Assembly: GCA_000200715.1 (NCBI GenBank) | Contig: DP000238.1 | Span: forward strand, 1,784,849-1,848,848 | Source: Cenarchaeum symbiosum A | GTDB lineage: Archaea; Thermoproteota; Nitrososphaeria; Nitrososphaerales; Nitrosopumilaceae | Length of the DNA: 64,000 bases | Reading direction: 5' to 3' | Shown: piece by piece, positions 25,185 through 32,797 of the stretch | Position numbering within the stretch: position 1 is the first letter of the stretch | How the letters are laid out: the number at the start of each line of letters is the position of its first letter | The notes under the pieces: generated by a model | Seen by the model: the letters and a program-made list of their open reading frames with translations, nothing else | What the model was told of the DNA's origin: nothing | The model's database searches: none | Made by a program: the position numbers and the translations under genes

Positions 25185-26384
25185 TCACCACCAGCCAAAC
25201 CAGATGTCTTGAGCATCCAAATCAGGTCCCGGCTTCCGCACCTCAACCCGGCCCTTCTCCCACGGATGGTCTATGCAGTAATACGGATAGTGCCCCGTTT
25301 CAAGCCCGCCGGTATCAAGGGTGTATGTTTCGCCGGGCATAATCGTCCCGGTCTCAAACGCGCCGTCCGGCCCCTTGTCGGGCAGTCCGCTTGCCAGTGT
25401 ATGCGATACCGGGCTGTCGTTGTACCAGGTAATGTTAACACCGGGCGACGCCGTCACATGCGCCTTGTCAAAGCACTCTTCACACGTGCGGTCATGGCCG
25501 TCCCCCAGCATGTGGACGATCGTATCGTTCTCTGCATAGTGTCCTAACGGGACGGCCACCTCGTATGGCTCGCGCACCGTGTCTATCCCGTCGGATGCGG
25601 TAATCCGGAATGCATAAGTGCCCACACCCGCGGAGGATACGTCTATCAGTATGGTAGCCGTGCCGTTGCCATGGTCCGATACCGAGACCGCCGCCGGGGG
25701 TAGGTCGTCGGGTATTACGCCTATGGTGACGAGATCGCCGTCCGGGTCAGATGTCAGCACCAGCAGCGATACTGCATCTGATGCCGCCTGTATCGGGCCG
25801 TACACTGCTGTACCGTTGAGGTATGCGTCAAGTTCAGGCTCTTCGTTGTCGAAGATTGGTACGCCAGTCCAGATGGGCGCATTCAAATCGATTCCCGGCT
25901 TCCGCACCTCAACCCGGCCCTTCTCCCACGGATGGTCTATGCAGTAATACGGATAGTGCCCCGTTTCAAGCCCGCCGGTATCAAGGGTGTATGTTTCGCC
26001 GGGCATAATCGTCCCGGTCTCAAACGCGCCGTCCGGCCCCTTGTCGGGCAGTCCGCTTGCCAGTGTATGCGATACCGGGCTGTCGTTGTACCAGGTAATG
26101 TTAACACCGGGCGACGCCGTCACATGCGCCTTGTCAAAGCACTCTTCACACGTGCGGTCATGGCCGTCCCCCAGCATGTGGACGATCGTATCGTTCGTCG
26201 TAGAGATCCCCGCCGGATGCGCCGGGGTATCCCCCTCTACGGGCTCTGTGGTGTCCTGTGCAGCGGGCTCGTTCTGTGAGACAGGCACCGGGGTGTTTTG
26301 AACGTCGGATGCCGACAATGCCACATATCCTACTGCCGCGGCCACAATTATCACGACTGCAGCTGCAAGGTACGCCCTCCTCAC
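25185..26384 (-). CDS. Secreted protein with two identical cupredoxin domains
   Basis: A 399-residue exported protein. Residues 4-24 are a signal/anchor helix. Two plastocyanin-like domains (about residues 63-165 and 285-386) flank an Ig/cadherin-like linker (SSAGVGTYAFRITASDG). In each domain the copper site is SHTLASG (His) and YYCIDHPWEKG (Cys, His); the axial Met usual in HPWM motifs is Glu here. Each also has DGHDRTCEECF, a possible extra metal site. The two domains are identical in 304 bp of DNA. The start is a GTG whose bases overlap the TGA of the upstream small ORF (GTGA). Likely electron transfer or copper handling outside the membrane. Confidence 0.85.
   Translation of the reverse strand: MRRAYLAAAVVIIVAAAVGYVALSASDVQNTPVPVSQNEPAAQDTTEPVEGDTPAHPAGISTTNDTIVHMLGDGHDRTCEECFDKAHVTASPGVNITWYNDSPVSHTLASGLPDKGPDGAFETGTIMPGETYTLDTGGLETGHYPYYCIDHPWEKGRVEVRKPGIDLNAPIWTGVPIFDNEEPELDAYLNGTAVYGPIQAASDAVSLLVLTSDPDGDLVTIGVIPDDLPPAAVSVSDHGNGTATILIDVSSAGVGTYAFRITASDGIDTVREPYEVAVPLGHYAENDTIVHMLGDGHDRTCEECFDKAHVTASPGVNITWYNDSPVSHTLASGLPDKGPDGAFETGTIMPGETYTLDTGGLETGHYPYYCIDHPWEKGRVEVRKPGPDLDAQDIWFGWW
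25227..25530 (-). repeat. 304-bp perfect direct repeat, downstream copy
   Basis: Identical base for base to 25893-26196 by inspection. It encodes the second cupredoxin domain. The absence of synonymous changes points to a very recent duplication or ongoing gene conversion. Confidence 0.93.
25893..26196 (-). repeat. 304-bp perfect direct repeat, upstream copy
   Basis: Partner of 25227-25530, offset 666 bp. It encodes the first cupredoxin domain. Confidence 0.93.
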
Positions 26385-28028: not shown

Positions 28029-28175
28029 GGGGCGAAGGTTTGTCTGCAAGTGGAAGACTGCCGGTACTGGTAGGGCCTTGACCCATAGCTTTTCTGGTCC
28101 GGTCTTACACACACTTCCATTCTTATTTTAATGATATATGTTATTAATGAATAATGAATATAATTTGATATGATA

Positions 28176-29089: not shown

Positions 29090-29473
29090 CTATCTGGTTT
29101 GCTGGGTCATGCCTGCAATCTGGTAGGTCCATGACCTGCCGGATCTTGCCCTGTTGACCCTCCCCCTCTGGGCGAACCTGGACAGGTATGTCGATATTAT
29201 GCTGAGCTTGATCGGGGCGTTGTACTCGTCCTCGTACTTTTCAAGTATGTCAGTAGAGGTGAACCTGCCTATGGGGAACTGTTTCTCCACTATGCCCCAG
29301 ATCTTTGAGCCTACCGTGTCTGGTACGGGGGAGTCGGCCTCCTCGATGTTTATCATGTCTAGCATGTCGAATATCTTGATGACCTTTTCACGGTTGACCT
29401 TGCCCTCTATGCGGATGTCATACCTGCCCCCCTCTGCGTCCTCCACGTCTATCCGTATCCGCTTCCTTGTCAT
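29090..29473 (-). CDS. Hypothetical protein beside the putative origin, possible winged helix
   Basis: A 127-residue basic protein. The N-terminal half is beta-rich (KRIRIDVEDAEGGRYDIRI). The C-terminal half (FTSTDILEKYEDEYNAPIKLSIISTYLSRFAQRGRVNR) looks like a winged helix with the wing RSGRSWTYQIAG. I use the ATG at 29473, since a TTGTTAAG box at about 29495-29502 (reverse strand) is 26 bp upstream of it; the frame extends to 29500. It faces away from orc1/cdc6 across the origin region. A DNA-binding role is inferred. Confidence 0.7.
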   Translation of the reverse strand: MTRKRIRIDVEDAEGGRYDIRIEGKVNREKVIKIFDMLDMINIEEADSPVPDTVGSKIWGIVEKQFPIGRFTSTDILEKYEDEYNAPIKLSIISTYLSRFAQRGRVNRARSGRSWTYQIAGMTQQTR

Positions 29474-29631
29474 GCGGATCGTTAGAGTGGCCCTTAACAA
29501 ATGAACAGATCCTATGAATTTTGTTAATTATCATGTCTGTTAATGTTGACTGCCTGTACAGGGCCTGCAGGAGGCCCCAAGATAACACCTCCGAGCCCCC
29601 TTCCACCTTATAAAGAGGGTATTTTGTGCGT

Positions 29632-29653
29632 GGAGTGGAAATGAAGGGGTCGG
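29632..29653 (+). promoter_or_regulatory. ORB-like box 1
   Basis: GAGTGGAAATGAAGGGGTCG matches the ORB pattern: a TGGAAA core followed by a G-string. The next bases (GGGAATCC) are shared with box 2. Confidence 0.75.
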
Positions 29654-29692
29654 GAATCCGTCATTATCACTGTTAACGGCCACCTTCACGCC

Positions 29693-29716
29693 TAGAGTGG
29701 AAACAAGGGGGTCAGA
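29693..29716 (+). promoter_or_regulatory. ORB-like box 2
   Basis: GAGTGGAAACAAGGGGGTCA is the closest match to the archaeal ORB consensus. It is in the same orientation as box 1, about 61 bp further on. Confidence 0.78.
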
Positions 29717-29774
29717 AATCCCCCCGTTCCCATCCTCCTTAACCAGACCTTAACAGGACGTTAATCCCTGCATA

Positions 29775-29800
29775 CCCACACACCTGTATTTCCACTCTAT
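29775..29800 (-). promoter_or_regulatory. ORB-like box 3 (inverted)
   Basis: Read on the reverse strand: GAGTGGAAATACAGGTGTGT followed by GGG. The core is conserved, the G-string interrupted. Opposite orientation to the other boxes and adjacent to the T-rich tract. Confidence 0.65.
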
Positions 29801-29868
29801 GTTTTTTTTATTTTTTTTTTCAAAGAGAGATCATACATACCAGACCACACCATACAACGATCCGGTTG

Positions 29869-29896
29869 TACAGTGGAAATGAAGGTGTGGAGGGGG
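29869..29896 (+). promoter_or_regulatory. ORB-like box 4
   Basis: CAGTGGAAATGAAGGTGTGG then AGGGGG. Together with box 3 it flanks the AT-rich tract, one on each side, in the classic inverted arrangement around an unwinding element. Confidence 0.72.
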
Positions 29897-29978
29897 TGGT
29901 TGATCGGTGTCAACAAACTTGATCTCCACTGTAAACAATATTCGTGTGATAACTTGAATTGGAACTATAGGATCCAAG

Positions 29979-31234: not shown

Positions 31235-32665
31235 CTATTCCCCAAAGTCCTTGTAGTATACCTTGAATGTCTTGAGGTTGACCAGAACCGCCCGGGCAGG
31301 GGTGGGGGTCTGGCCTATGCTTGACTGGAAGGGGGTCTGGCCCTGCCAGGTTCCCGCGTTGACCAGCAGCACCCCGCGGTAGCTGCCAAGCTCCGTCACG
31401 TGGACGTGCCCCATGTGGAAGATGTCCGGCACCTCGTCTATTACCATCATGTCCTCAGTCTCTGGGGCGATGGGCGTCTGGCTGCCGAATATGGGGCTGT
31501 AATGCCGGACCTTGAGCAGGTGGCGCATGACGTCGACCGGCCTGTCGTAGCTCAGCCCGGGGGTGGTCTTTACTATGTCGTCTATGCTCTGGCCGTGGAA
31601 TATGCCCACCTTTACACCGTTGAGCGAGATCATGGCGGGGTTGCCCAGCATTTCCACGTTGCCGCGCTCCCAGAGGCCCGCGTGGTACTTTTTCGGTATG
31701 GCGGGCTGCGGCAGGGCCCTCCTTCCGGGGTCGTGGTTGCCGGGCGTTATGAATATCTGCACATGATCGGGCACGCCCGCGAGCATCTCGTCTGCCTTTT
31801 GCAGCTGCTCCCCTATGGTCTGGTATGCAAGCTCCTTGTCCTGGTTGGGGAATATCCCCACGCCGTCCACCAGGTCGCCGCCTATTATCATATAGCGGAC
31901 CCTCCTGGCCACCGGGTCTATGCCTGATAGCCAGGAGACGAACTCTGCAAACGCCCCCTCCAGAAAGTACTTGCTGCCTATGTGCAGGTCCGAAAGAAAG
32001 ACCGCGTACACCTCGCTCTCGGACCTGTTGGGCTCGGATCCGGACCCGGGCACATCCGGCATGATCAGCTCCCGCGCCACAAGCCCGCCGCCCCTCCCCG
32101 CCACGACCTTTGCCATTACAAACTGGTCGTTTAGCAGCATGTCGGCCGCCTTCCGCAGGTCCCCGTCGTGCACCACCGCTTCCAGCGTGCCGGCGGGGTC
32201 GTCGAGCGCCACCTTGGTCACGTTCCGTTCGGAGGACCGGCCGGTGACCAGCCCGCAGACGTACGCCTCCTCGTCGTCCTTGACAGAGGCGGCAGAGGCG
32301 CTGCTCCTGAGGCGGGACGCCTCGGGCCTGGCAAGCACTATCTTTTTGAGCTTTGCAAACCTGCTTGCAAAAAGGGCATTGTACCCCTCTACCCCTTCCG
32401 CCGACGTGATCAATGGAGTGGGATCAAACAGGACGGAATGCTCTGCCGTGAGCTCGCCCTCGGGTTTTATGCCGAGGATCTCCTCCAGGTCGTCCCGGCT
32501 GATCATAAACGCGTTCTTGCCGGCCTTGGTCTTGACCAGGTCCCTGATCAGCCTCTGCAGCTCGGATGCATCAACGCCCTCCAGCACGTCCAGCGCGTCG
32601 GGGTGCACCTGAAAGCCCTTTTTGAGCGCGTAATCAAGGGCCAGGGCCACCTCTCGGTCCAACAC
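31235..32665 (-). CDS. polB: DNA polymerase D small subunit DP1 (3'-5' exonuclease)
   Basis: About 476 residues. It is the calcineurin-like proofreading subunit of PolD. The metal-binding motifs appear in order: DLHIGSKYF, GGDLVDGVG, TPGNHDPGR, HGQSIDD and HMGHVHVTEL. An OB-fold (VCGLVTGRSSERNVTKVALDDP) precedes them, and the N-terminus is a small helical domain that contacts DP2. The frame opens with TTG at 32677, but AAATTTAATTAAA (reverse strand, 32683-32695) puts the transcript start near the GTG at 32665. It converges with cdc6. Confidence 0.95.
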   Translation of the reverse strand: MLDREVALALDYALKKGFQVHPDALDVLEGVDASELQRLIRDLVKTKAGKNAFMISRDDLEEILGIKPEGELTAEHSVLFDPTPLITSAEGVEGYNALFASRFAKLKKIVLARPEASRLRSSASAASVKDDEEAYVCGLVTGRSSERNVTKVALDDPAGTLEAVVHDGDLRKAADMLLNDQFVMAKVVAGRGGGLVARELIMPDVPGSGSEPNRSESEVYAVFLSDLHIGSKYFLEGAFAEFVSWLSGIDPVARRVRYMIIGGDLVDGVGIFPNQDKELAYQTIGEQLQKADEMLAGVPDHVQIFITPGNHDPGRRALPQPAIPKKYHAGLWERGNVEMLGNPAMISLNGVKVGIFHGQSIDDIVKTTPGLSYDRPVDVMRHLLKVRHYSPIFGSQTPIAPETEDMMVIDEVPDIFHMGHVHVTELGSYRGVLLVNAGTWQGQTPFQSSIGQTPTPARAVLVNLKTFKVYYKDFGE

Positions 32666-32797
32666 CCCCCGGGGCAATGTGTTTTAATTAAATTTACCCG
32701 CGGCCGGGGGATCGCGGAGGACGGGGCGCCTGCGCGGATTTCGCGGCGGCTCTTACAACACACTATTATATCAACAGGGGAGGGGTAGCCTGATCCC

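Follow-up and report, generated by a model that had tools for sequence, protein, structure and literature searches.

Results

The window, that is, the whole 64,000-bp stretch of DNA analysed here, belongs to the genome of Cenarchaeum symbiosum A, which is 2,045,086 bp long and forms a single contig. It holds an orc1/cdc6 gene and, divergent from it across a 505-bp intergenic region, a gene for a small winged-helix protein. The two genes, the elements between them and the gene that follows orc1 are arranged as follows.

29090..29473, minus strand: gene for a 127-aa winged-helix protein that belongs to no named family; it diverges from orc1 on the other side of the putative origin
29494..29543, no strand assigned: left TTAAC/GTTAA group, with copies at 29494 (plus), 29523 (minus) and 29539 (minus); in relatives, three slots at fixed positions to the left of box 1
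29631..29650, plus strand: ORB box 1 (TGGAGTGGAAATGAAGGGGT), 18/20 against the common ORB motif, the joint top score in 664 kb; exact pattern unique in the genome
29672..29677, no strand assigned: GTTAAC palindrome between boxes 1 and 2; slot -26 from box 2, fixed in about 90 of 104 loci
29693..29712, plus strand: ORB box 2 (TAGAGTGGAAACAAGGGGGT), 17/20 against the common ORB motif; starts 62 bp after box 1
29739..29764, no strand assigned: triple TTAAC-TTAAC-GTTAA in steps of 11 and 10 bp between boxes 2 and 3; slots +40, +51 and +61/62 from box 2
29780..29799, minus strand: ORB box 3, inverted, GGTGTGTGGGT type, 16/20; the inverted box is conserved in the ++-+ layout
29802..29820, no strand assigned: T-tract of the form T8-A-T10, flanked by inverted box 3 and forward box 4; a candidate for the unwinding element
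29869..29888, plus strand: ORB box 4 (TACAGTGGAAATGAAGGTGT), 18/20; exact pattern unique in the genome
29979..31220, plus strand: orc1/cdc6 initiator gene, 413 aa (Pfam Cdc6_lid, Cdc6_C and AAA; TIGR02928 above cut-off)
31235..32677, minus strand: gene for the DNA polymerase D small subunit (DP1; PF04042), tail to tail with orc1

The first-pass annotation of this DNA had proposed four ORB-like boxes upstream of orc1/cdc6, with a run of mostly T between boxes 3 and 4, as a probable chromosomal replication origin. A check of the sequence together with a genome-wide pattern scan confirmed the four boxes in their places, the T run was found as described, and the orc1/cdc6 gene directly downstream of the boxes proved to be the only one in the genome. 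On the plus strand AGTGGAAA starts at 29634, 29696 and 29872, and the inverted box occupies 29780-29796. The pattern AGTGGAAANNNDGGKGT has four exact matches in the entire genome, all within the 505-bp intergenic region, and chance is therefore excluded. With one mismatch allowed, a single further match appeared outside the boxes, with no cluster elsewhere in the whole genome. We also scanned 664 kb of the genome with the "common" archaeal ORB motif of 20 positions (PMC4164010); the boxes scored 18, 18, 17 and 16, and all remaining sites scored 15 or less. The boxes are thus the best four sites in that 664 kb, and strong matches, which would have counted against the earlier proposal had they been widespread, were not widespread elsewhere.

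Three criteria were applied to the boxes, namely multiple ORB copies (TCCA-N-TGGAAA plus a G-string), clustering at the origin without spread across the genome, and adjacency to the initiator gene. All were met: the right half and the G-string are preserved, the boxes are clustered, and box 4 lies about 90 bp from the start codon of the single-copy orc1/cdc6 gene. The left TCCA half is degenerate here, reading TGGA, TAGA or TACA. Nitrosopumilaceae retain the TGGAAA half and the G-string and have a degenerate left half, with AGAG, GGAG and GGAA dominating before TGGAAA, unlike other orders of the class, where the TCCA form (TCCAGTGGAAA) is common. Box 4 is faced, at 29917-29930, by an inverted sequence that resembles a degenerate box (AGTGGAGATCAAGT, with 3 mismatches); it is possibly the remnant of a fifth box and was not counted. 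Repeats of other kinds were also seen. The minus-strand ORF 25185-26384 contains two nearly identical repeats of ~100 aa with a cupredoxin-like look (NDTIVHMLGDGHDRTCEECFDKAHV...), suggesting a recent internal duplication, and outside the window, at C1:272620-273089, five matches at exact 114-bp steps point to a 114-bp tandem repeat array.

Box number, orientation and spacing are conserved within the family and to some extent in the class as a whole. The comparison set comprised 80 named orc1 loci and further divergent loci, from which 122 orc1 upstream regions were scored. Boxes 1 and 2 forward, box 3 inverted with a GGTGTGTGGGT tail, the T-tract and then box 4 forward (++-+) were found upstream of orc1 in 86 of the 122 regions, and boxes 1 and 2 were spaced by 61 or 62 bp in 107 of the 122; the tandem box pair is present also in other families and orders. 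On the far side of orc1, the polD small subunit gene follows in 79/80 family loci. The genome G045 (1,645,259 bp), which we take to be Nitrosopumilus maritimus, has the same four-box layout, straddling the ends of its contig. It resembles the window also in its T-tract, its GTTAAC slots and its flanking orc1 and winged-helix genes, and differs in having a degenerate box 4 that lies farther from box 3. N. maritimus has one chromosomal origin, which was mapped in vivo (PMC4010727, PMC5333045). Given this mapped origin and the shared layout, we read the site in the window as the chromosomal origin. In one genome of the same genus (G001, locus L119) a G+C-rich GGGGGCCGGC repeat array separates box 4 from the orc1 start; the window has no such array.

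No second example of orc1/cdc6 or of an ORB cluster was found anywhere in the C. symbiosum genome. Several Nitrosopumilaceae (e.g. G033, G047 and G008) carry second Orc1-like paralogues of about 30% identity away from the origin, and none was found in the window's genome. Taken together, the unique boxes, the sole orc1, the conserved number, orientation and spacing, and the G045 layout support the earlier reading. Judged from sequence, this site is almost certainly the single Orc1-dependent chromosomal origin of C. symbiosum A, and the origin with its box layout as described is very probable; the site thereby adds a new member to the ORB/Orc1 family of origins. The identity of the boxes, their uniqueness in the genome, the conserved architecture, the repeats and the gene pair are direct observations; that an origin fires here is inferred from homology to the mapped one. 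An ORB origin of this ordinary kind was to be expected, and it is confirmed in silico only, there being no marker-frequency data for the organism.

The T-tract forms a clear local minimum of duplex stability within the G+C-rich window, and its 50-bp low-stability stretch ranks fourth among separated minima in the 64 kb. The window's lowest stability is found in two 50-bp stretches that start at 28149 and 29033, left of the winged-helix gene and outside the box region. Among relatives, a T-tract of at least 12 after box 3 was present in 61/84 loci, compared with 5 in shuffled spacers. The criterion of an AT-rich element flanked by inverted ORBs was thus met by the sequence; unwinding itself, and where it would take place, are inferred. 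One expectation raised for this site failed: GC skew, computed for 20-kb samples and for 344 kb of contiguous sequence, showed no clear inflection at the site. As no GC or AT skew inflection was seen around it, skew was not used as support. In archaea GC skew is not a strict origin criterion; it is a supporting sign of an origin, not a defining one.

The annotation had overlooked two things, the TTAAC/GTTAA repeats interspersed among the boxes and, to their left, the conserved gene that diverges from orc1. Between 29494 and 29764 we counted 8 five-base TTAAC/GTTAA matches (GTTAAC counted twice), against a background of 0.39 per kb, and the origin is the only cluster of at least 5 TTAAC/GTTAA per 300 bp in 664 kb. 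GTTAAC is conserved in 104/104 comparable loci, with repeat slots fixed relative to box 2 at -26, -13, +40, +51 and +61/62. Relatives have 2.26 TTAAC/GTTAA between boxes 1 and 2 where 0.14 are expected (16-fold) and 3.24 between boxes 2 and 3 where 0.31 are expected (10-fold), and no excess between boxes 3 and 4. The excess persists once ORBs are masked. GTTAA is the most enriched real pentamer in the family origin regions (z 68; the ORB core TGGAA reaches z 31), a ranking that leaves aside its top entry, a stretch of N in a single row. TTCAC takes the place of the TTAAC repeat in families f4, f7 and f11, and in other classes, with ORBs masked, TTCAC is 5.2-fold enriched and TTAAC 1.9-fold. 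As a general marker we tried the pattern TTAACN6TTAACN3-6GTTAA, which has a single whole-genome match in the window's genome and likewise in G045. It gave zero matches in the other four of the six genomes tried and was rejected as too strict. In the open-access literature searched, this second element is undescribed, and we found nothing relevant on GTTAAC in archaeal origins or on a conserved winged-helix neighbour of cdc6.

The divergent gene on the left adjoins orc1 in 77/77 family genomes and does so in the majority of the class's other families. Its 127-aa product had no Pfam match at 0.001 and no NCBIfam match above cut-off, and a profile search of solved structures returned no significant relative. 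The structure model consists of a low-confidence N-terminal hairpin and helix, followed by a confident winged helix at residues of about 50-120; blocks of the model covering residues 61 to 120 have a mean pLDDT >90, which satisfied our criterion for a winged-helix fold. Fold comparison aligned about 70 residues with Fur-type winged helices at a VIA Z of about 10, and the fold search matched many winged helices, including Fur, ArsR, Zalpha and others. This fold is common, so the match says nothing specific on function. Beyond the family, the divergent gene pair was found in 7/8 genomes of family f10, 13/15 of f3, 3/3 of f6, 4/4 of f7 and 3/3 of f8, and a profile of the protein found it in 184/300 Thermoproteota genomes. 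Outside the class, the gene is adjacent to orc1 in 18/37 genomes, across 11 families; it is often apart from orc1 there (f15, f20, f25, f40), and the repeats can persist (f40, f20). Family f9 lacks the repeats and has the gene in the same direction as orc1.

One residue of this protein varies with the repeat. Two positions before STYL in the recognition helix, the window protein has Ile92; this position is I, V, L or A in 74/75 TTAAC lineages and Thr in 28/29 TTCAC lineages, and the column is the best motif match among 233 columns tested in both proteins. The exceptions are Thr with TTAAC in one f8 genome and Ala with TTCAC in one f13 genome, and f22 is mixed. An independent-pairs sign test of the match found two clear independent switches only and was not significant. 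The tree requires just two motif switches, and the match is consequently suggestive, not proof. The TTCAC label of locus L255 in this tree is unreliable, since orc1 and the gene run in the same direction at that locus and it was the wrong side that was scored. Chemically, a contact between a hydrophobic residue and a thymine methyl, as opposed to a polar contact to a C-G pair, would fit, although this is an inference.

Discussion

Our results suggest a site of initiation with two layers. Orc1 made from the adjacent gene would bind four polar boxes, of which the first two form a tandem with a 62-bp spacing, the third is inverted and the fourth points forward; this binding is inferred, as no binding or footprint data exist for the organism. 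The boxes, once bound by Orc1, would jointly load MCM. At Sulfolobus oriC1, Orc1 on ORBs recruits MCM (PMC12141716). The duplex may then open at the T-tract that separates boxes 3 and 4, or else within the spacer of boxes 2 and 3. Helically phased GTTAAC half-sites interleave boxes 1-3 and not boxes 3-4, and their likeliest ligand would be the winged-helix protein encoded across the origin, a second origin-binding factor that may shape or gate initiation. It would coat the box 1-3 half in helical phase and either aid MCM loading or exit, or restrain initiation; whether its role is activating or restraining cannot be told.

That the winged-helix protein binds the GTTAAC repeats is inferred without binding data, and we regard it as rather likely. 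The most serious objection is that the repeats are bound by another protein, such as a nucleoid-associated protein (UBP-like or other) or a transcription factor encoded elsewhere, and that the winged-helix gene is a mere conserved neighbour. The second origin motif of Sulfolobus, ucm, is indeed bound by UBP (PMC12141716), and adjacency of genes alone is no proof of binding. However, within the 664 kb examined no GTTAAC cluster lies outside the origin, which is unlike the behaviour of a general nucleoid protein, and the recognition-helix residue of the neighbour tracks the repeat base. On this evidence we consider another ligand unlikely.

It is more doubtful still that the site is an origin whose GTTAAC repeats do no more than melt easily, as an unwinding element to which no dedicated protein binds. 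TTAA-rich DNA is weak, and repeats and T-tract share one intergenic region, but it is a specific sequence that has been kept rather than AT content, with TTTAC showing no enrichment. Moreover, the repeats sit at fixed slots with helical spacing, the more stable GTTCAC substitutes for them in other lineages, and their excess is missing beside the T-tract. Least credible of all is the proposal that boxes and repeats are operators of a divergent orc1/winged-helix promoter region subject to autoregulation, the true origin lying elsewhere, for although the region is a divergent intergenic one, box 4 is near the orc1 start codon and a skew signal is absent, the box sequence matches the archaeal ORB consensus, G045 (presumably N. 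maritimus, with its one mapped origin) shares the layout, four boxes and phased repeats over about 400 bp are too much for a simple operator, and the genome has no other orc1 or ORB cluster.

Under the preferred reading, with Orc1 on the boxes and the winged-helix protein on the repeats, the site may reflect an ancient two-protein origin code in many Thermoproteota. Orc1 on ORBs would be joined on phased GTTCAC/GTTAAC half-sites by a winged-helix protein that is encoded at the origin and dedicated to it. This protein and its half-sites would have co-evolved (Thr with GTTCAC, a hydrophobic residue with GTTAAC), and the protein would be a functional analogue of Sulfolobus UBP. We hold this broader proposal to be evenly balanced. 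Should the pairing of this protein with the hexamer be right, origins in Nitrososphaeria and related classes could be annotated by a second marker, and archaeal replication would gain an initiation factor that has so far been missing.

Comparable arrangements are known from other origins. At the Caulobacter origin, TTAA-type half-sites of CtrA lie about one helical turn apart and are interleaved with initiator boxes. The likeness in half-site arrangement is a lead at most; CtrA is a bacterial response regulator, and no homology is claimed. At Sulfolobus oriC3, a gene for a winged-helix protein, WhiP, adjoins an archaeal origin. It replaces Orc1 there, whereas in the window the winged-helix protein accompanies Orc1. 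WhiP is the initiator of oriC3 (PMC12141716). Sulfolobus oriC1 resembles the window in having polar ORBs inverted about an AT-rich element beside orc1, and in having a second, non-ORB motif (ucm) between inverted boxes, comparable to the GTTAAC that lies between boxes 2 and 3. In contrast, the second motif of the window is a multi-copy hexamer, GTTAAC/GTTCAC, and its candidate ligand is the origin-encoded winged-helix protein, not UBP. UBP is a small general nucleoid protein with >300 genomic sites in Sulfolobus; its structure is a saddle with stirrup loops, and ubp is a relatively recent acquisition of Desulfurococcales and Sulfolobales (PMC12141716). Whether more divergent archaeal lineages have UBP analogues at their origins is a question raised by the Bell laboratory in 2025 (PMC12141716), and for this question the 127-aa protein and the hexamer provide a concrete candidate pair.
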